Shown piece by piece: positions 19,192 to 60,499 of a stretch of DNA of 64,000 nt. The notes under the pieces are model-generated. The model was not told the DNA's origin. It saw nothing but the letters and a program-made list of their open reading frames with translations, and made no database searches. How positions within the stretch are numbered: the first letter of the stretch is position 1; each line of letters opens with the position of its first letter. The stretch covers positions 1-64,000 of the IMG/VR virus record IMGVR_UViG_3300017963_000024; one strand, written 5' to 3'. This DNA comes from a virus. Both the position numbers and the translations under genes were made by a program.

Positions 19192-19479
19192 ATGCTGAGT
19201 GAGTTCAGAGAAGCTTTCGAGAAAGACTATTGGCCGAAGAGACGAACCGCCTGTCATCTTTACTTCATCAGTGGGGTAGCCCTGACGACAGCCGCAAAAG
19301 CGTTTATAGAGGAATCCTTTATCATGTTTGGAGTTCTTCTGCTTGTCTGTATCATGTTCTGGCAAGCAGGGCTGCGATTGGTGAATCGAGAAATCCAAAT
19401 CGAAGAAGAAGAGATTAGGAAGATGGAGGAGAAGGATGGCACTCGTAAAAGCGTTGGGAAGGACGAAACTGCTGGGTGA
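19192..19479 (+). CDS. Small two-span membrane protein
   Basis: 95 residues. Two hydrophobic helices lie at about 20-37 and 44-62 (FGVLLLVCIMFWQAG), followed by an acidic tail. It overlaps the start of the UDG-exonuclease gene by 44 bp. Membrane anchoring of the replisome or an unrelated role are both possible; no family was recognised. Confidence 0.6.
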   Translation: MLSEFREAFEKDYWPKRRTACHLYFISGVALTTAAKAFIEESFIMFGVLLLVCIMFWQAGLRLVNREIQIEEEEIRKMEEKDGTRKSVGKDETAG

Positions 19480-20656
19480 CTGCTGTGAGGATTGTCCGCT
19501 TCGGGAGAGAATCAAAGTTCTGCCGACTCTCCCACCGAACAGAAAAGTAACAGTCGTCGGGTTGGCACCCGGACAGACTGAGGAAATACAGGGCAAGAAC
19601 TTTGTAGGTCGGGCTGGTGCGCTCCTCCGAAAGATACTAGCTAAAGCTGGTCTTGATCCTACAGAGGATGTCGGCTACGTCAATCTGACTCGTTGCCGCC
19701 CAATCGACGATCAGTTCAATGCCGAATGGAACAAGGCGCGACGTAGGTGTGAAGGTTTCTTCATGGATGACCTTCTCACTCCCACCACCAGTTACAAGAC
19801 GGGCACTGGCCCGCTGCTGGTGTGTGGGACCGACGCAGTTAAGGTAGTCAAAGAAGACCGGAAAGCGCAGATCACGCAGGAACGTGGACTCTGGCAACTC
19901 TCTCCCGTTCGTCGTCCATTCATTGCTACATGGCACCCAGCAGCGATCTTGAGATCGGGAAGTCTCGAACGAGCAAAGCAGTTCGAGGAAGACATCTTCC
20001 GAATGGCAAAGCGGGTGAACCGTCAGGACAAACTGCCAAGCATCAAGCAGATCGTCTGCAAGAACATCGACACCGCTATTCCTTTTCTGACAAAGCTTGC
20101 CTTGCAGAAAACTCCGTGGGCGTTCGATATTGAAACCTATGATGCGAAAAAGTTTCCCTCTAGGAAGGGAGTGGCTGTTGATCCTTTCCACCCCGACTTC
20201 AGAGTTCGAGGAATCGCTTTTGCAACAAGTGACAAAGGGGGATTCTATGTCGATCTGAAAGAGGATGAGGAAAACATCCCGCTGGAGATTCGTACCGAAG
20301 GTGGTCAACTACTTACTGAAGTATTCACCAGTGGTGCGGACAAGTGGGCATACCACGGGAACTTCGATGAAGAAGGTTTAGTCGCACAGGGTTGGACGCA
20401 GAAAGTCACGAATAGGCGAGGTGATGGTCTGCTAGCTCTGATTGCTTTAGGTGACGGTAGACGATCCTCGAATACGCTTGCTCGTGCTGTGACTGAAGTC
20501 TTGAAAGAACCAACATATTGGGAAGCTGACAAAACAGAAATGCGGGATCTTCCCTTGGAGGTGGTAGCTGAAGGTGCAATCCGTGATGCCGTAGCAACTT
20601 TCCGCCTCGTGAAAAAATTGCATGGGTTCATGGAGAATGGAAAGTATTGTGTATGA
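19436..20656 (+). CDS. Uracil-DNA glycosylase fused to 3'-5' exonuclease
   Basis: 406 residues. Residues 1-200 match iron-sulfur UDGs (families 4/5): ligand Cys at 17, 20, 87 and 105, the GLAPGQTEE and FVGRAG motifs, and an ATWHPAA motif. Residues about 205-400 match a DnaQ-like/PolA exonuclease with FDIETYD (Asp231, Glu233). The polymerase domain is absent and is encoded separately at 21052. The fusion would remove uracil and proofread at the fork. The start follows GGAGGAGAAGG. Confidence 0.88.
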   Translation: MALVKALGRTKLLGDCCEDCPLRERIKVLPTLPPNRKVTVVGLAPGQTEEIQGKNFVGRAGALLRKILAKAGLDPTEDVGYVNLTRCRPIDDQFNAEWNKARRRCEGFFMDDLLTPTTSYKTGTGPLLVCGTDAVKVVKEDRKAQITQERGLWQLSPVRRPFIATWHPAAILRSGSLERAKQFEEDIFRMAKRVNRQDKLPSIKQIVCKNIDTAIPFLTKLALQKTPWAFDIETYDAKKFPSRKGVAVDPFHPDFRVRGIAFATSDKGGFYVDLKEDEENIPLEIRTEGGQLLTEVFTSGADKWAYHGNFDEEGLVAQGWTQKVTNRRGDGLLALIALGDGRRSSNTLARAVTEVLKEPTYWEADKTEMRDLPLEVVAEGAIRDAVATFRLVKKLHGFMENGKYCV

Positions 20657-21021
20657 AAAAATTGATCCTCGTTCTGGACGATACGCTTATTCAGAAAATG
20701 GATGGGCAGATCGAGACTGCTGAGAAAAGAGCGAAGAACATGAGTCCTTCCTCTGGACTGATCTTTCAGGGACAGAGAAATGATGATTCCTATCGTTGGG
20801 GATTCGAGGAGGGCAAAGCCGCTGCAATGCGCGAACTCTTGAAATATCTAAAGGCCGAACTGATGACAGCAACAACCGATCTACAATGCGCGAAGTGCGG
20901 TTCTTCATTCAACTTCGATGGTGAAACTTTTCTACGTGCTCAGAAGTCGGGGTCCGGTAGGGCAATTCGTCCACGAAAGCGAAAAGAAATGGAGCAGCAA
21001 AGTGGACGCGGAGCACCATAG
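20653..21021 (+). CDS. Hypothetical protein with a Cys pair
   Basis: 122 residues, ATGA overlap with the UDG-exonuclease gene. One CAKCGSSFNF motif near residue 80 could be half of a zinc ribbon. A helical region before it holds RWGFEEGKAAAMREL. The end is basic. It sits between the two polymerase parts; an accessory or linker role is possible but unproven. Confidence 0.6.
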   Translation: MKKLILVLDDTLIQKMDGQIETAEKRAKNMSPSSGLIFQGQRNDDSYRWGFEEGKAAAMRELLKYLKAELMTATTDLQCAKCGSSFNFDGETFLRAQKSGSGRAIRPRKRKEMEQQSGRGAP

Positions 21022-21051
21022 AACTAGAAGCCATAAGCGCGGAGGAGCAAA

Positions 21052-22644
21052 ATGAAGATTGGAGACTACTACCACAAGATCTTGATGCCAGCGAATACTG
21101 CTGTAAGTTCCATGCGTATCGCTGGTATTCCCGTTAGCATGGAACGACTTAACGATTGCTATGTTGACTTCAACAAACGCATAGCAAAGCTTGAAAAGAG
21201 GCTAACGCGGAAGGCAAAAAAGAAAGGAATGGACCTCACATTCAGTGCAGCCCATCGACCTAGTACGATTGCGCTTCGGCAGTTTCTCTACGGACGCAAG
21301 GGCTTGGGGCTGGAATGTACGGTTTTTACGGACAAAACGAAGCAGCCCGCCACCAGTGCTGAAGCTTTAATGAGATACGCCTCCATCGCAAATCCTAGAA
21401 AAGACGATGTTCCAGAGGTTTCTGATCTTCTGAAGCTCAGTTCGCTGGCAAAGGCTGTAGCTACTTACGTTCTACCCTTTGCTAGAGCCGTTCGCGCTGA
21501 TGGGGCAATCCATCCAAAGTTTAATTGGGGAGTTGTGAGAACTCCGCGTCTGAGTGCTTCCGATCCCCCTGTTCATCAGATTCCAGAGAAAGCAGACAAA
21601 GAAGTAGCGGCTGGGATCAAACGTTGCTTCGTTCCCCGTGAAAAACCGTGCTTGGACCCGGAGGATTGGGACCCGCGTAAGCACGGTTCCTGTTTCAAGT
21701 GGGACATTTCGGGTGCTGAGATGGCTGTTCGCGCTGCTATGCTCACAAAGCTTTTTTGCAAGAGTGAGTTGACTCTGTGGGATTACATCCGAAATGGTAA
21801 GGACCCGCATGGCAAGACTGCTGCTCTGATGTACGATACTGAAGACGGAACCTACAAGAAGGGAGATTACGAGCGGGATGTTGTTGGCAAAATTTCAAAC
21901 TTCTCACTTCTGTACGGTGGATCGTCTTATACCCTACAACGAACGTTGCTCCTCAAGGCGCGTGTATTCTGGACGGATGAGGAATCTGCCTTGAGGCACG
22001 GACGATTTTTCGAGGGCTATCCCGAACTCGCTGAAATGTACGAGTGGGACAAAGCTTTTCTTGGGAAGAATGGGTACTGCCAAGATGGATACGGCAGGAG
22101 GCGTTGGATCGAGCTTCCAGCAAACGCAAAGTTCCTTGGAATTCGCTTTGGAAAAAGTCAGTGGAGGGTTCCTAGAGGTGATCGGCAAGCTTGGAGAGAA
22201 CTCGACCACTGCTTTCACGTTGCTGCGAACACACCTACTCAGGGAATGTCAGCAACAGACAATCTGTGGATGCTCGCTCTTTGCTTTCATGGTGAGTACG
22301 TCGAGTTGAGAGTTGTTCCCATGTGGGAGGACAAGGGTGGAGTGCTCTTTCCCGAAGCGAAGAACTGGCAGTTCCACGAAGGACCGGGACCGGGAGGGAA
22401 ACCATTCAAAGCTTGGCATACGAACACGGTTCACGACTCAGGTTGGGGGGATTGCGGTCCGGGGTATGTCGAACCAGTGATGAAGGTGATCGCACGGAGA
22501 TGCAGTGCGCTTCCGTTTGATTGGAGATTGAAAGCAGACGTTCCGTACAGAGTTGATCTGGAAGTAGGTCCAGACATGGGCAATCTGCGGGACTACAACG
22601 ACGTGGCGAAGGAGTTTGGACTTGAGCCAATGCCCGTCAGATAG
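21052..22644 (+). CDS. DNA polymerase family A, palm-fingers-thumb subunit
   Basis: 530 residues. Motif A is WDISGAEMAVRAA (Asp218). Motif B is RDVVGKISNFSLLYGG (Arg275, Lys280, Phe284, Tyr288). Motif C is VHDS (His461, Asp462), with Ser where most family A enzymes have Glu. There is no exonuclease domain; that is in the gene at 19436, so the enzyme is split in two polypeptides. It replicates phage DNA with the DnaB-like helicase and primase. The ribosome site is GCGGAGGAGCAAAATG. Confidence 0.9.
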   Translation: MKIGDYYHKILMPANTAVSSMRIAGIPVSMERLNDCYVDFNKRIAKLEKRLTRKAKKKGMDLTFSAAHRPSTIALRQFLYGRKGLGLECTVFTDKTKQPATSAEALMRYASIANPRKDDVPEVSDLLKLSSLAKAVATYVLPFARAVRADGAIHPKFNWGVVRTPRLSASDPPVHQIPEKADKEVAAGIKRCFVPREKPCLDPEDWDPRKHGSCFKWDISGAEMAVRAAMLTKLFCKSELTLWDYIRNGKDPHGKTAALMYDTEDGTYKKGDYERDVVGKISNFSLLYGGSSYTLQRTLLLKARVFWTDEESALRHGRFFEGYPELAEMYEWDKAFLGKNGYCQDGYGRRRWIELPANAKFLGIRFGKSQWRVPRGDRQAWRELDHCFHVAANTPTQGMSATDNLWMLALCFHGEYVELRVVPMWEDKGGVLFPEAKNWQFHEGPGPGGKPFKAWHTNTVHDSGWGDCGPGYVEPVMKVIARRCSALPFDWRLKADVPYRVDLEVGPDMGNLRDYNDVAKEFGLEPMPVR

Positions 22645-54463: not shown

Positions 54464-55629
54464 TGAAGTTGGTCAAATTTTTGCTGACTCTTCTTCTGCT
54501 AGGCTCTCCAGCCTTCGGCCAGATTTGGCCCACTCCCCCTGCTGTAACTCCGACTCCTCAGACTGGTGGCCCTATCGCCGCTGATGTTGTCATGTTTGAG
54601 GGGACGTTCGAGGACACGCTTGAGGTTCTACACTTTTACGAGGGCGAATTCACTCCCGAGACTATCGAACCCACATGGGTTGGTGTATTTCCCTCCAAAG
54701 GTGGTGGCTTAGGCAACCTTACCCGTGCGCTTTATCAGTTGAACCTCTACGACATTGGAGCAGAACCGGGTGACACAATTCTTCAGTGCCTTGTAGGGCT
54801 GGTAACTGAGGAGGTTGGTGTAGGCTTCTCTGACGGCGAGGTTTACAAAACTACAGTTCCTTGGGAGCCTGTGCCGGGGCCTACATGGTGGACGGCTGCT
54901 GGGGATATAGTAAAGCTTTATGGTTTTTACGAAGATCCTGGCATTATAGAGGATGCGGGATTTGAAATGACGCCTCCTCTTCCTTTTGGTGCAACAGACC
55001 CCGGTTGGCCCACCTCAACGATTGGGGACTCGACCGTCATCTACCGCTCGCCTTATACGAACCTTCGGACGTGGGAAACTTCGGGAGGTGACTGGACTGT
55101 TACCGATGGAATTACTGGCATCGTTTGTGACACGGTCGATGAGTGGCTAATCCTTGATGTTCTGCCTTGGTGCAAGGACGCGGTTGAAGGTGGTGGAAAC
55201 GGGGTTGTGCAATTCATTTTCAAACGTGCCTCAGAGGATGTAACCGCAGGGGTGTGTGGCTACTCTGGAACAGACCACGCGGACGAGAGCCGCCATCCAG
55301 TCTTCGGCCTCAGTCTTCTTCGTGGTTCTGGTTTTGGACAGGTCGAAACGTGCTCGTCTGCTCCGTGCGCTTCTCCCCGAAAGCTTACAGGAGCAACTGT
55401 TGGACGAAAGACTATATCCATCAACAACGAAGAGGGAGCCTCAGTTTCGGTCTATTGCCGGATCAGCAGTGAATTTGCCGCCCCTCCCGTTGTGATCGAC
55501 AGCACAACGACTTCCGAAAACATTGTCTTCGATGATTGGTGCGAGGAAGTCTGGTACGAAGTAACGGCTACGTGCGATCCTTGCAATGTCACAGCTACTC
55601 TACGGATCGACAAAGGAGCTTGTTTGTAA
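54463..55629 (+). CDS. Exported beta-rich protein with paralogous C-terminal domain
   Basis: 388 residues. Signal peptide MKLVKFLLTLLLLGSPAFGQ, a Pro/Thr linker, then a beta-rich body. Residues about 295-388 repeat the Cys-rich domain of the protein at 53067: SSAPC, then KTISINNEEG, VYCRISSE, FDDWCEEV. No enzyme motif was seen. ATG 54463 overlaps the previous stop. A decoration, receptor-binding or host-surface role is possible. Confidence 0.6.
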   Translation: MKLVKFLLTLLLLGSPAFGQIWPTPPAVTPTPQTGGPIAADVVMFEGTFEDTLEVLHFYEGEFTPETIEPTWVGVFPSKGGGLGNLTRALYQLNLYDIGAEPGDTILQCLVGLVTEEVGVGFSDGEVYKTTVPWEPVPGPTWWTAAGDIVKLYGFYEDPGIIEDAGFEMTPPLPFGATDPGWPTSTIGDSTVIYRSPYTNLRTWETSGGDWTVTDGITGIVCDTVDEWLILDVLPWCKDAVEGGGNGVVQFIFKRASEDVTAGVCGYSGTDHADESRHPVFGLSLLRGSGFGQVETCSSAPCASPRKLTGATVGRKTISINNEEGASVSVYCRISSEFAAPPVVIDSTTTSENIVFDDWCEEVWYEVTATCDPCNVTATLRIDKGACL

Positions 55630-56207
55630 TGTCTAAGGGGGCTAAACCCAAAGTGAGTGCGGAAGTTCCCTCCGCTCATGGAGGGAAACGCCCCGGTGCT
55701 GGCCGACCAAGAGGCTCAAAGAACGCACCAAGGCCCACTGCTAGTTCACTTGCTAAGATGTCACGTCGGGAAGCTCGTGAAAAATTTAAGGAGCTTCTCG
55801 AACCAGTTGAGCGCGCCGCAGCAGTGAGGCTCACTCAAATCTTGCTAAAGGAAACAAAGGATCGACCAGACCTCGCGCTGGAAGCGTGTCGGTTGGTGTT
55901 TGAGTTCCGTCAGGGCAAACCGGCTCCGATGGAGTGGCTGGACGAGATGCCAGAAGGACTTGTGTCCGGGCAACAGCAACCTCAGATCGGACAACAAGCG
56001 AACATTGGCGTCCTGATGATCGGGGGAAACGAAGAGGAGTACAAAGAAGGTCTTCGTATGCTCCGAATGAAGATGAGGGGAACTGCCGAGCCTCAACAGG
56101 TTGACCTCTCCAAGATTCCTCCACCCCTTCCAGCCCCCGTGCAGTCCGACGTTGTGGACGTAACTCCTGAAGAGGAGTCAGAAGCGACGGGAACCGATGG
56201 CGACTAA
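55629..56207 (+). CDS. Probable terminase small subunit
   Basis: 192 residues. The N-terminal KRPGAGRPRGSKN motif is typical of small terminase proteins and AT-hooks; helices follow (SRREAREKFKELLEPVERAA), and the C-terminus is acidic and Pro-rich. It would recognise phage DNA and feed it to the large subunit encoded two genes on. Starts at a TAATG overlap. Confidence 0.72.
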   Translation: MSKGAKPKVSAEVPSAHGGKRPGAGRPRGSKNAPRPTASSLAKMSRREAREKFKELLEPVERAAAVRLTQILLKETKDRPDLALEACRLVFEFRQGKPAPMEWLDEMPEGLVSGQQQPQIGQQANIGVLMIGGNEEEYKEGLRMLRMKMRGTAEPQQVDLSKIPPPLPAPVQSDVVDVTPEEESEATGTDGD

Positions 56208-56484
56208 CGACGTTGATTTCAAGTTTACTTGGAAGATTCTCTCTTGGCCTGAACAGGAAGAAGGCTTTCTAACAAAGCTTTTTGATCCTGATCGCCTTGG
56301 ATTTCCTCTCGATCCTGACGAGAAGATTACTTCCGAGCGTATTAGAAGAGCCTTGGAATCTCCTCAATTCCGAGATGAGTTCAGACGGAACTTGAATGAG
56401 ATTGTGGAGGAAACGGCTAGAAAGATATTTCGAGAAGCTTTGGAAAAGGGTTTTACGGCCATTGAGCTAGAGCCAACACCATGA
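56197..56484 (+). CDS. Small hypothetical protein between terminase genes
   Basis: 95 residues. Aromatic start (FKFTWKILSWPEQEEGFL), helical end. Overlaps both terminase genes (11 and 4 bp). Could be a packaging accessory; no family was recognised. Confidence 0.55.
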   Translation: MATNDVDFKFTWKILSWPEQEEGFLTKLFDPDRLGFPLDPDEKITSERIRRALESPQFRDEFRRNLNEIVEETARKIFREALEKGFTAIELEPTP

Positions 56485-58925
56485 GTGAAGTAGCCTTTGA
56501 TCCGCTTTCGGTAATCGACGACAGCACTCCTTGTGCTTTTAGTCGGTTTCCTCAGACGGACGACGAACTTTGGGAGTTCGTGGCAACGGTTTGGGGCGTT
56601 GAGATCCCAAGGAAAAAGATTTGCCCCCAGCACTGTGCTCCGTTCGATGCTTTTGCCGATGCCTTCTTCTGTAAAGCGGAAAACGCGATCTGGCTCGCAA
56701 GCCGTGGGTTGGGTGGCAAGAGTTTCCTTCTTGCTACGCTGGGCCTCACTGAAGCAGTTTGTCTTGGGGCGACGGCAACGGTCCTTGGTGGATCAGGCGC
56801 ACAATCACAAAACGTTCACAGGTATATGCAAGATATGTGGAGTTACCCTGCCGCGCCACGTCAATTGCTTGCGGAGGACCCCACGAAAATGAGGACCGTT
56901 CTTAAGAACGGTGCCTATGTTCAAGCTTTGCTGGCTTCATCCACCAGTGTTCGTGGCCCTCACCCTGTAAGGCTTCGGTGCGACGAGTGCCTCACTGGAG
57001 ATTCACTCGTTCTAATGGCTGATGGTTCTAAGAAACGTTTGGACAGGGTAGAACCCTCAGACAAGGTGGTTACTTTCTATAGGGGTTGTTTATGTGAGGG
57101 TGTTGTGTTAGCCTCTGAGTATAAGGGTGTCAGAGAGACACTAAAGCTTAGAACGGAGGCTGGTAATGAAATCGTCTGCACAAAAGAACATCCGGTCCTC
57201 GGAGAAAGTGGTTGGCGAGAAGCGTCTACCTTTGCAGCGGGGGATTACATCTGGCTATCCGATAACTCTGCCGACGTACTCCCACCGGGACGTGAAGAAG
57301 TGTCTCGACTGTGGGAAAGCTTTGAAGCACAAGATGGCTCGGCTGGTGACGGGGTACTGCAAAGAGTGTCTAACGGAGAAGGTCAAGAAACCGAAGTTCT
57401 GCGAAGAATGCGGGACTCAGGTTGGAAGCCAATCGAAGCTTTGTCGGCCCTGTTGCTTCAAACGAAGGAAGAAGTCAAAAGCTTTTTGCAAGGATTGTGG
57501 AACCGAATTGCGTTTAGCTTCTACGAAGCGTTGTCGCCCCTGCCACCTCAAGTTCATGTCCTCGGAACGCATGGTTTCGAGGATGTCGGCTTCCAGAGCT
57601 ACGGCTATGAAAAACAGGGAGGAGAGATCGAGAGCCGAAACACAGGCGGCGGAGCTTCTTCGACTGTTCAAGATAAACTTTCGAGAGCAAGTTCCAGCCT
57701 CCCGTTATATTCTGGACTTCGTTCTGGACGACTACAAGGTTGTGATCGAGGTACACGGGGCGTATTGGCACGACAGGCCCGCTGCGAAGAAAAGGGATCA
57801 AGCAAAAAAGAAAGCTTTGGAGAAGAGGGGTTGGCAGGTTCTTTTCTGGCGAACCGAAAAGCTCCACCTGTGGTGGCTCGATCTCGTGTCGCCTCCATTC
57901 AACAAGCTGGGAGAAGTGGAGTCTATGATATAAGAGTTTCTCCTGGCAAGAGCTTCGTCGCTAACGGTATCATTGTTCATAACTGTGACGAGATGAAGCT
58001 CGACATTCTCGATGCGGCTCTAGGCCAGCCGATGTCGAAGGACGGAATTCCCGCTCAAACAGTAATGTCCTCGACGCACCACTATCCTGACGGTACGGTC
58101 ACAGAGCTTCTGAATCGAGCCAAAGAACGTGGGATGCCCGTCTATAACTGGTGCTACCGGGAAAGTATGGCCGGGGGCTGGCTTTCCCCTGCCGATGTGG
58201 AAGCCGCCCGTGCTCGTGTTCCACTGGCAATGTGGGATGTTGAGTTTGAGCTTCAGGAGCCGAGTCCTGAAGGACGCGCCATCCAGCCACAAGCTGTAGA
58301 GTGGACTTTCGATCAAAGCTTGGGATACTTTGAAGGCCAAGCGAATGAAAAGATCGTGCTTGAACCCCCACAGGAGGGGGCTAAGTACGTGACCGGGGCA
58401 GATTGGGCGAAGGAGAGTGACTGGACAGTCATCATTACGTTCCGAATTGACGTTACTCCTTGGAAGCTTGTCATGTTCGAGCGGCTTGGCCGACGCCCTT
58501 GGCCGGAAATGGTTGAAAAATTCAATGACAGGCTTACTCGCTACCGAGGTGTCGGCGTCCACGATGCAACAGGGCTGGGAAATGTTGTGGATGACTTCGT
58601 GACCAACAGAGCCGCCAGAGGGGAAGTTTTGGTGGGAAAGAATAGGGCTGAAATTTTCTCTGAATACGTTGCAGCACTGGAAAACCGTGAAGTGGTTGCA
58701 CCGAGAATTGACTTCATGTATGCAGAGCACAAGTATTGCACGGTGGATGATTTGTGGGGGAGTGGGCACCCGCCTGATTCCTTTGTTGCTGGTGCGCTGG
58801 CATGGCGAGGCAAACGTTTCAGCCAGTCTACGGGAACCGTAAGGTCCATTGTGTCCCACCCGAAGTGGAAAGAGCGGTCGGACGAGAGGATCGCACGTCG
58901 GCTTGAACCTTGGAAGTTCGACTAG
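56481..58925 (+). CDS. Terminase large subunit interrupted by an intein
   Basis: 814-residue precursor. Walker A-like SRGLGGKSF near residue 75. The Walker B Asp-Glu region is split: the host sequence RLRCDE is followed by an intein (residues 170-501) and resumes CDEMKLDIL. After splicing (about 482 residues) the ATPase is continuous, and the nuclease half carries GADWAKESDWTVII and VHDATGLGNVVDDF with metal-binding Asp residues. It packages DNA at the portal. Another gene is nested in a different frame within the intein. Confidence 0.87.
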   Translation: MSEVAFDPLSVIDDSTPCAFSRFPQTDDELWEFVATVWGVEIPRKKICPQHCAPFDAFADAFFCKAENAIWLASRGLGGKSFLLATLGLTEAVCLGATATVLGGSGAQSQNVHRYMQDMWSYPAAPRQLLAEDPTKMRTVLKNGAYVQALLASSTSVRGPHPVRLRCDECLTGDSLVLMADGSKKRLDRVEPSDKVVTFYRGCLCEGVVLASEYKGVRETLKLRTEAGNEIVCTKEHPVLGESGWREASTFAAGDYIWLSDNSADVLPPGREEVSRLWESFEAQDGSAGDGVLQRVSNGEGQETEVLRRMRDSGWKPIEALSALLLQTKEEVKSFLQGLWNRIAFSFYEALSPLPPQVHVLGTHGFEDVGFQSYGYEKQGGEIESRNTGGGASSTVQDKLSRASSSLPLYSGLRSGRLQGCDRGTRGVLARQARCEEKGSSKKESFGEEGLAGSFLANRKAPPVVARSRVASIQQAGRSGVYDIRVSPGKSFVANGIIVHNCDEMKLDILDAALGQPMSKDGIPAQTVMSSTHHYPDGTVTELLNRAKERGMPVYNWCYRESMAGGWLSPADVEAARARVPLAMWDVEFELQEPSPEGRAIQPQAVEWTFDQSLGYFEGQANEKIVLEPPQEGAKYVTGADWAKESDWTVIITFRIDVTPWKLVMFERLGRRPWPEMVEKFNDRLTRYRGVGVHDATGLGNVVDDFVTNRAARGEVLVGKNRAEIFSEYVAALENREVVAPRIDFMYAEHKYCTVDDLWGSGHPPDSFVAGALAWRGKRFSQSTGTVRSIVSHPKWKERSDERIARRLEPWKFD
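56988..57983 (+). mobile_element. Intein in the terminase ATPase site, 332 residues
   Basis: Block A starts at Cys170, CLTGDSLVLMADG. Block B is GNEIVCTKEHPVL with Thr-X-X-His. Block F/G is SGVYDIRVSPGKSF, ending ANGIIVHN before Cys+1. Both splice junctions are complete, so it should be a self-splicing standard intein. The middle (about residues 100-300 of the intein) shows no LAGLIDADG or HNH motif in this frame; instead the same DNA encodes a nuclease in another frame (57166-57933). Confidence 0.88.
57166..57933 (+). CDS. EDxHD/Vsr-like homing endonuclease nested out of frame in the intein
   Basis: 255 residues in the +1 frame relative to the terminase. ATG 57166 follows GGAGG with 6-bp spacing. 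Three Cys4 zinc ribbons: CLDCG to CKEC, CEECG to CRPC, and CKDCG to CRPC. A Vsr-like nuclease domain follows with RYILDFVLDDYKVVIEVHGA and YWHD, matching the Glu-Asp-X-His-Asp family described from split inteins. It would cut intein-free terminase genes and drive spread. The terminase frame is open across all 256 codons. Confidence 0.82.
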   Translation: MKSSAQKNIRSSEKVVGEKRLPLQRGITSGYPITLPTYSHRDVKKCLDCGKALKHKMARLVTGYCKECLTEKVKKPKFCEECGTQVGSQSKLCRPCCFKRRKKSKAFCKDCGTELRLASTKRCRPCHLKFMSSERMVSRMSASRATAMKNREERSRAETQAAELLRLFKINFREQVPASRYILDFVLDDYKVVIEVHGAYWHDRPAAKKRDQAKKKALEKRGWQVLFWRTEKLHLWWLDLVSPPFNKLGEVESMI

Positions 58926-58933
58926 GAGTGGTC

Positions 58934-60499
58934 ATGTCCCGAAGCAAAAAGCGAATAATGAAGACCGGGGGAGCCGTTCAGGTTTCCAAATCAACGGTCG
59001 TCAAAGAAGATCAAGAACCACTCCTGCCGACGATGTTCGTGAGGGTCATTAAGGCGGCAAAGCCAGTGACTTCTACTCCTCCAAGTCAGCAGATTACAAA
59101 CGATGACTTCAGTTCGTACTACGAAGGCGAGGTTGTCGTCCAACCTTATGTAGACCCTTCTGCGCTTCTAAACCTCGCTCAAGAGAATCCTGTTCATTGT
59201 GCTTGCATCACTGCTGTTGCGGCTGATGCTACTGGCCGGGGTTGGAAATTGGAGTGGTCTGGTCAGCCTGATCTTAGGATCGAGCAGAAGGATGTGAAGC
59301 AAGCACAGCAAGAACTTTGGCAAAAGCTTGAAGACATTACACCAAATCTCACGTTTTCCGAACTCCTTCGTCAGGCAGTTTGGGAGCTTCGGGCAATTGG
59401 GTGGGCCGCTTGGGAGGTCGCTCGTGACAGCAGTGGCGAAATTGGTGCTCTCTACCCAATTCCCGCCCACACCGTTCGAGTTTTGAAGGACAAGACTGGT
59501 TACATCCAGATTCGAGGTGGCAAAGCTCGATATTTCCGAAACTTTGGTCAGGAGGGCGCGCTTCCAGAAGGTGTGGAGTTCGTGAATGTGGATACAGGCG
59601 ATGCTTCCCGAGCCAATGAACTTCTTTTCTTCCAATCTTACCATCCACGAACTCCTTTCTATGGACTTCCCGATTGGGTTTCCGCCGTTTCGTCGATGGC
59701 TGAGATGACTCAGATTCGAGAGTTCAATATGTCGTTCTTCTCAAGTGGAGGGATGGCAGACAGAATCATCACTGTAAAAGCCGATAACGAGGCAGTTGCC
59801 GATGCGCTTGGTAAAAAGATCGAGGAGCAAGTCCAAGCTGCTAAAGGTCTAGCTCACGTTTCCATAGTAATCAGTGGAACGACTGATGTTGAAGTTCGTG
59901 TGGAATCAATGAGCCGAACCGAGGGCGATAGGGATGGTCAGTTCAGAACTCGGCGGGATGACCTCGTAAAAGAAATTCTCATGGCCCACAGTGTTCCTCC
60001 ATACAGAATCGGCTTTGCCGAGCTAGGAACTCTTGGAGGATCAGCAGCCCGTGAAATGCTTCGAGCCTACCGCTTTGGGGCAATCGAGCCTGTCCAGACA
60101 ATCATCGAAGACCGACTAACTCAAACTTTGTTCGGTCAACAAGGCTTGCAGATTCCATCAAGCATGAGATGGGTTCTGCAAGACGTTGATTTTGAGTTGG
60201 TTGATTTGAATCTTCTCATCGCTACCCGAGGAGTTCAAAATGGTTTTGCCACTCCCTCACAAGCTGGACAGTTGATGGGATTCGAGCCAACTGACGATCC
60301 AGCGGCAAACCGTCTCTATATGGATGGTGTTCCTATCACTGGAGATGTTCGTGAAGGCCAACCATCTGGATTATCTACAGAGCAACCAAGCGGATTGCCA
60401 GAAGGAATGGCTCCGACCGCCCCGACACCGATGGAGACTCCAGCACCACAGAGCGGGGGCAATGGTCGAGGAGGAACGATTGAGGTTGCTTCCGCGTGA
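58934..60499 (+). CDS. Portal protein
   Basis: 521 residues behind TAGGAGTGG. Typical portal-family passages: NPVHCACITAVAADATGRGW, AIGWAAWEVARDSSGEI, YHPRTPFYGLPDW, and a C-terminal Pro/Gly/Gln-rich tail. The portal ring is the entry for DNA and the connector to the tail. PBSX/SPP1-like family by pattern. Placed directly after the large terminase. Confidence 0.85.
   Translation: MSRSKKRIMKTGGAVQVSKSTVVKEDQEPLLPTMFVRVIKAAKPVTSTPPSQQITNDDFSSYYEGEVVVQPYVDPSALLNLAQENPVHCACITAVAADATGRGWKLEWSGQPDLRIEQKDVKQAQQELWQKLEDITPNLTFSELLRQAVWELRAIGWAAWEVARDSSGEIGALYPIPAHTVRVLKDKTGYIQIRGGKARYFRNFGQEGALPEGVEFVNVDTGDASRANELLFFQSYHPRTPFYGLPDWVSAVSSMAEMTQIREFNMSFFSSGGMADRIITVKADNEAVADALGKKIEEQVQAAKGLAHVSIVISGTTDVEVRVESMSRTEGDRDGQFRTRRDDLVKEILMAHSVPPYRIGFAELGTLGGSAAREMLRAYRFGAIEPVQTIIEDRLTQTLFGQQGLQIPSSMRWVLQDVDFELVDLNLLIATRGVQNGFATPSQAGQLMGFEPTDDPAANRLYMDGVPITGDVREGQPSGLSTEQPSGLPEGMAPTAPTPMETPAPQSGGNGRGGTIEVASA

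Follow-up and report, generated by a model that had tools for sequence, protein, structure and literature searches.

Fractured genes that combine split inteins with an EDxHD nuclease are said to have been described by Dassa et al. in 2009, and we take I-Bth0305I to be the prototype of the EDxHD nucleases. The closest published precedent for the locus analyzed here is the ShiLan domain of a phage methylase, an out-of-frame nuclease that leaves the host frame open and comes without a splicing domain (PMC11855218). For terminase inteins, Kelley et al. report that the TerL6-f intein of mycobacteriophage Chandler spliced in a reporter, and tie endonuclease activity to the identifiable HEN domains of TerL1-b and TerL1-c (PMC5050341); the hidden gene that we find in TerL6-f seems to have gone unnoticed. 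We analyzed a stretch of 64,000 nucleotides (the window) from a virus record of 86,832 bases. Our reading, which we hold to be very likely, is that its large terminase gene contains a mobile intein and that the homing nuclease of this intein comes from a gene of its own, which overlaps the HINT loop in the +1 frame (Table 1).

Table 1. Positions of the terminase, intein and nuclease features in the window, with the evidence for each.
Feature	Position	Strand	Basis
Large terminase (TerL) ORF, running through the intein with no stop	56481..58925	+	phrog_9 terminase large subunit, 4.9e-6
Intein, 332 aa, Cys1 to His331-Asn332	56988..57983	+	Intein_splicing, HINT model, empty site in relatives
Splicing block A (CLTGDSLVLMADGS)	56988..57029	+	Sequence and alignment
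SD sequence GGAGG, 6 nt ahead of the nuclease ATG	57155..57159	+	Standard start layout of the phage
Splicing block B (GNEIVCTKEHPVLG, TxxH motif)	57162..57203	+	Sequence and alignments
Nuclease gene in the +1 frame, 255 aa, ATG to TAA; zinc ribbons and Vsr/EDxHD-type nuclease	57166..57933	+	ORF, Pfam, fold, homologues
Terminase-frame linker, predicted disordered	57261..57914	+	pLDDT mostly 38-62; near-background identity between homologues
Three zinc ribbons (C46/49-C65/68, C79/82-C93/96, C108/111-C123/126)	57301..57543	+	DZR 3.7e-6; ribbons 2 and 3 invariant in five homologues
Nuclease catalytic domain (E158, D184, E195-V-H197-G-x-Y-W-H202, D211, K214 invariant)	57631..57852	+	Model, Foldseek, invariant columns
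Splicing block F (SGVYDIRVSPGKSFV)	57915..57959	+	Sequence and alignment
Splicing block G (ANGIIVHN) and Cys+1	57960..57986	+	Sequence; His331-Asn332 invariant in alignment

The insertion point of the intein is the Walker B region of the terminase, between RLRCDE and CDEMKL. The in-frame insert matches Pfam Intein_splicing (4.2e-11) and extends from Cys1 (TGC at 56988) to the last Asn (57981-57983), with Cys+1 at 57984; these are exactly the limits given in an initial annotation of the window, which had also reported complete splice blocks. Indeed, blocks A, B (TxxH), F, and G of class 1 inteins are all present (CLTGDS..., CTKEHP, VYDIRVSPGKSF, and VHN followed by C). AlphaFold models, built with alignments of the window and locus sequences, predict a HINT fold for residues 1-90 and 290-332 of the insert (pLDDT about 83-98, in blocks of ten residues), with a low-confidence loop between the two parts, and the best PDB matches of the HINT model are the DnaB and RecA mini-inteins. 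As is required for class 1, there are intein-less homologues with a continuous site, which reads LRLDE-IDEMDL in L002 and LRLDE-CDEMKL in L173 (69% identical); overall, intein-less relatives are 52-69% identical to the window terminase. In the best 80 terminase relatives in IMG/VR, no intein was detected at this site and all match as continuous genes, an absence that is no estimate of frequency because the search patterns favor intein-less copies. The insert is thus a complete class-1-type intein, and this copy would be expected to splice. A group I or group II intron was rejected as a candidate for the locus, as nothing in Rfam matched 55000-60000 in a search for intron RNA structure with a cutoff of E=1.

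The overlapping +1 ORF matches Pfam DUF559 (3.2e-12), Vsr (2.7e-6), and double zinc ribbon (3.7e-6), and contains three zinc ribbons of the pattern CxxC...CxxC. Its AlphaFold model has a confident core around residues 156-229 (pLDDT about 86-96) and a poorly modeled zinc-ribbon half. In Foldseek, the best PDB fold is I-Bth0305I (3r3p, E=2.5e-5), followed by Vsr (1cw0, 1.4e-4). The Pfam and fold matches bear out the initial description of a 255-residue Vsr-like nuclease with three zinc ribbons in a +1-shifted frame. Based on its predicted Vsr-like PD-(D/E)XK fold and the conserved E, D, H (H197/H202), and D, we classify the +1 protein as a putative EDxHD/Vsr-like homing endonuclease, which would cleave the intein-less allele. 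The GGAGG-ATG start that had been assigned to it is also well founded, since GGAGG-N6-ATG is the layout used by this phage: it occurs 24 times in the window, the nuclease start included, versus 2.7 expected. A near-identical GGAGGAGCGAAATG start sequence is found at many genes of the window and represents a strong common ribosome-binding consensus. The nuclease had been placed within the linker between blocks B and F; it does overlap the linker, but because the ORF starts within block B and stops within block F, it overlaps these splicing blocks as well.

We then considered the terminase frame opposite the nuclease, keeping the nuclease protein fixed and redrawing its synonymous codons with the codon usage of the phage in 20,000 samples. 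The mean number of terminase-frame stops expected is 16.2 over the nuclease and 13.7 between blocks B and F, and the observed number is 0; none of the 20,000 samples lacked a terminase-frame stop. The earlier estimate of about 12 chance stops was therefore of the right size. The third frame of the overlap contains 11 stops. In the reverse resampling, where the terminase-frame protein is fixed, 3.5 nuclease-frame stops are expected (P(0)=0.02), and the nuclease frame has, beside this result, strong homology of its own. Codon-usage log-odds favor the nuclease frame only in 57561-57920; since both frames are positive over much of the remaining overlap, this measure fails to separate them. At the level of the sequence, the resampling demonstrates selection that keeps the terminase frame free of stops.

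When the nuclease or the terminase was used alone as a protein query, scans gave almost no matches, and relatives were reached only through alignments and a motif pattern. Specifically, a scan of DNA coding for EVHGxYWH returned 38 loci. In four of these (L351, L354, L356, and L368), the terminase is unbroken and intein halves flank a +1-frame zinc-ribbon nuclease; no additional member came from a final scan that used all five nested nucleases. Across the five copies, nuclease identity is 36-47%, and the identity of the terminase-frame linkers is mostly 21-31%, near background, with one short stretch of 60 residues at 42%. Each copy has 0 host-frame stops versus 5.8-17.7 expected (P at most 0.002). 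The ligands of zinc ribbons 2 and 3 and the catalytic residues are invariant. The start codons of the nuclease vary among the four homologues, where some SD sequences are weak, and the intein and nuclease identities are not clearly higher than the extein identities in every pair. Since five divergent copies have it, the +1 arrangement has been kept through much divergence. On 94 alignment columns, the five nested nucleases form one clade (support 99/93), apart from the nucleases of fractured genes.

A parallel class uses the +2 frame. Among 80 loci from IMG/VR whose inteins resemble the N-part of the window intein, 77 have a +2-frame ORF of 131-222 codons between blocks B and F, and Endonuclease VII is matched by 45 of the 46 +2-frame members that were scanned; L028 and L062 have mini-inteins that contain no nested gene, and the intein of L082 carries LAGLIDADG in frame. 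The 57 non-redundant inteins with a +2-frame ORF, a set that still includes L082, contain 0 terminase-frame stops versus 166.8 expected, with 695 in the third frame; because the sequences are related, the product of probabilities over the 57 inteins is not a formal P value. SD cores of at least 4 nt stand at the right distance from 41 of the 57 ORF starts; for all ATGs of these loci taken together, the figure is 19%. In seven close pairs, the differences at nuclease codon positions 1, 2, and 3 number 88, 63, and 220. Since nuclease position 3, which has the most differences, is terminase position 2, the nuclease frame is the constrained one in this class, and all that is required of the splicing frame is to remain open. 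In Gordonia phage Angelicage, the linker is 74.5% identical in the terminase frame (tblastn) versus 89.4% in the nuclease frame. Cultured phages with a +2-frame Endonuclease VII are Angelicage and its relatives and the Mycobacterium phages Phlyer, Vincenzo, phi1_186018, and Chandler. The Gordonia and Mycobacterium phage records of L004, L011, L083, and L169-L172 give these loci no annotation beyond terminase or intein; the remark "homing endonuclease in intein" stands in the Vincenzo record.

Other nested genes encode HNH nucleases. Terminase inteins at the Walker B site of L276, L315, L323, L329, and L332 contain a +2-frame HNH gene with zinc ribbons (HNH_3, 9.6e-18 in L276 and 2e-14 in L323), and the nucleases of L276 and L315 differ at 47, 28, and 74 sites in positions 1, 2, and 3. 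In L256 (4350-4881, minus strand) and L282, the nested HNH gene of the terminase intein is antisense (HNH_3, 3.4e-12 and 5.1e-13). Altogether, spliceable-looking terminase inteins host at least three nuclease families in three relative orientations, and the search for other inteins with out-of-frame nucleases that the initial annotation had proposed has yielded four +1 loci, many +2-frame cases, and antisense HNH cases. Separately, the terminases of L315, L329, and L332 apparently contain a second intein-like insert.

EDxHD-type nucleases also occur between split-intein halves (L095-L097, L161, L133, and L089), and in L095-L097, L161, and L133 the nuclease ORF overlaps the ORF of the C-half by about 10-16 nt. 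Relatives of the window nuclease are thus found in split-intein fractured genes, from which such nucleases had been said to be known. L095-L097, L133, L161, L338, L357, and L363 have the order of fractured genes, that is, a gene half with the intein N-part, a Vsr/EDxHD-type nuclease ORF, and the intein C-part with the other gene half. Elsewhere in the window, a family A DNA polymerase is split over two genes (19436-22644), with uracil-DNA-glycosylase-like and exonuclease parts at 19436-20656 and the polymerase domain at 21052-22644; the two genes are separated by a 124-aa ORF of unknown function.

The window locus comes from a single metagenome-derived record, where a frameshift or assembly error might hide a nuclease that is truly in frame with the intein or a terminase that is truly split. 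We give this explanation practically no chance. Since the nuclease spans block B to block F and no stop interrupts the terminase frame, one indel cannot put the intein N-part, the nuclease, and the intein C-part in a single frame. In addition, sequencing error is excluded because four other, independent viral contigs have the same +1 architecture, and the +2 version is present in cultured Gordonia and Mycobacterium phages. A frameshift error was what the initial annotation had named as able to overturn its reading, and this challenge fails because the design recurs in five independent contigs and in cultured phage genomes. It is very unlikely, too, that the nuclease arises as part of a fusion protein through programmed ribosomal frameshifting out of the terminase frame, with no initiation of its own. 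The two frames do overlap, with the N-part of HINT directly upstream, but an upstream stop lies near 57142 and a shift into the +1 frame is possible only past it, the ORF starts with a standard GGAGG-N6-ATG, and ORF starts of the parallel set have SD cores far more often than ATGs in general.

The initial annotation took the locus for an evolutionary intermediate, which would lie on the way from an in-frame HEN intein to split-intein fractured genes. The EDxHD-type nucleases between split-intein halves, with their short C-half overlaps, speak for such a path; we nevertheless hold it to be distinctly improbable, as the five nested nucleases form a clade apart from the fractured-gene ones (with only 94 columns for the deep order) and the same layout is found with unrelated nucleases, namely Endonuclease VII and HNH. 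The nuclease frame might also be a dead relic or, as phage nucleases can have roles other than homing, might serve, for example, in packaging or phage competition. This seems unlikely to us: the catalytic residues and zinc ligands are invariant in five divergent copies, and third-position change dominates in the parallel class. Because the nuclease sits between blocks B and F, the usual site of a HEN, homing is favored over another role.

We therefore return to the mobile intein with a separately encoded homing nuclease. With both frames open, both domains recognizable, a start signal, selection against terminase-frame stops, homologues, and empty sites all readable from the DNA, the locus fits the earlier proposal that one stretch serves a splicing protein and an independent nuclease at once. 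Ribosomes on the terminase frame would make a precursor, in which the HINT domain includes an unstructured loop of roughly 200 residues and from which the intein should splice itself out to give a working terminase. Other ribosomes on the same mRNA would start at the internal GGAGG-ATG (57166) and make the free 255-residue zinc-ribbon nuclease of Vsr/EDxHD type. The most likely target of this nuclease would be the sequence coding for Walker B in terminase genes that lack the intein, and repair of the cut allele would copy the intein and its nested gene into it. Since we found no closely related pair of intein-plus and intein-minus phages at the window site, we infer homing there from the patchy distribution.

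More generally, intein mobility in phage terminases probably often depends on hidden homing nucleases of the HINT loop that lie in another frame or in antisense, are produced as proteins of their own, and have evolved repeatedly; we count at least Endonuclease VII in +2, HNH_3 in +2, HNH_3 in antisense twice, and Vsr/EDxHD in +1. If so, many inteins classed as long-linker or nuclease-free would carry an active nuclease, with "no stop" selection only in the splicing frame; intein surveys, which search for in-frame nuclease fusions, would call them nuclease-free. Placing the nuclease in another frame would uncouple mobility from splicing, since the nuclease has its own start and sequence and the splicing protein needs only an open, floppy loop. 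With constraint on one frame and nothing but avoidance of stops in the other, such loci would offer a clean natural system for dual-frame evolution. Whether inteins can acquire existing free-standing homing genes regardless of frame also becomes testable.

The comparison with known systems places the window locus as follows. As in ShiLan, a phage gene has received an insertion, its frame is open, and a mobile nuclease lies in another frame; however, the window nuclease is flanked by complete splicing blocks, whereas the ShiLan insert is thought to stay in the protein, and the window nuclease is of Vsr/EDxHD type with a clear SD start. With fractured genes, the locus shares the nuclease fold class and a separate ORF between the intein N- and C-parts, but its host gene is unbroken (56481-58925), its nuclease gene lies over the intein in a different frame, and this nuclease belongs to a separate clade. 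Canonical HEN inteins, with LAGLIDADG or HNH in frame (e.g., L082 and BAKA TerL1-b), likewise carry the nuclease between HINT blocks B and F; in the window, by contrast, it is unfused and in the +1 frame, and the in-frame linker is predicted to be disordered. I-Bth0305I and Vsr endonuclease (PDB 3r3p and 1cw0) have the same catalytic fold and E...D...EVHG..WH...D pattern, without the three preceding zinc ribbons and the nesting in an intein that distinguish the window nuclease. Finally, the TerL6-f inteins of mycobacteriophages Chandler, Phlyer, and Vincenzo and the Gordonia phage inteins resemble the window intein in having a nuclease gene in another frame of the B-F segment of a terminase intein, and differ from it in that this gene encodes Endonuclease VII (HNH), uses the +2 frame, and lies at the C-motif site.
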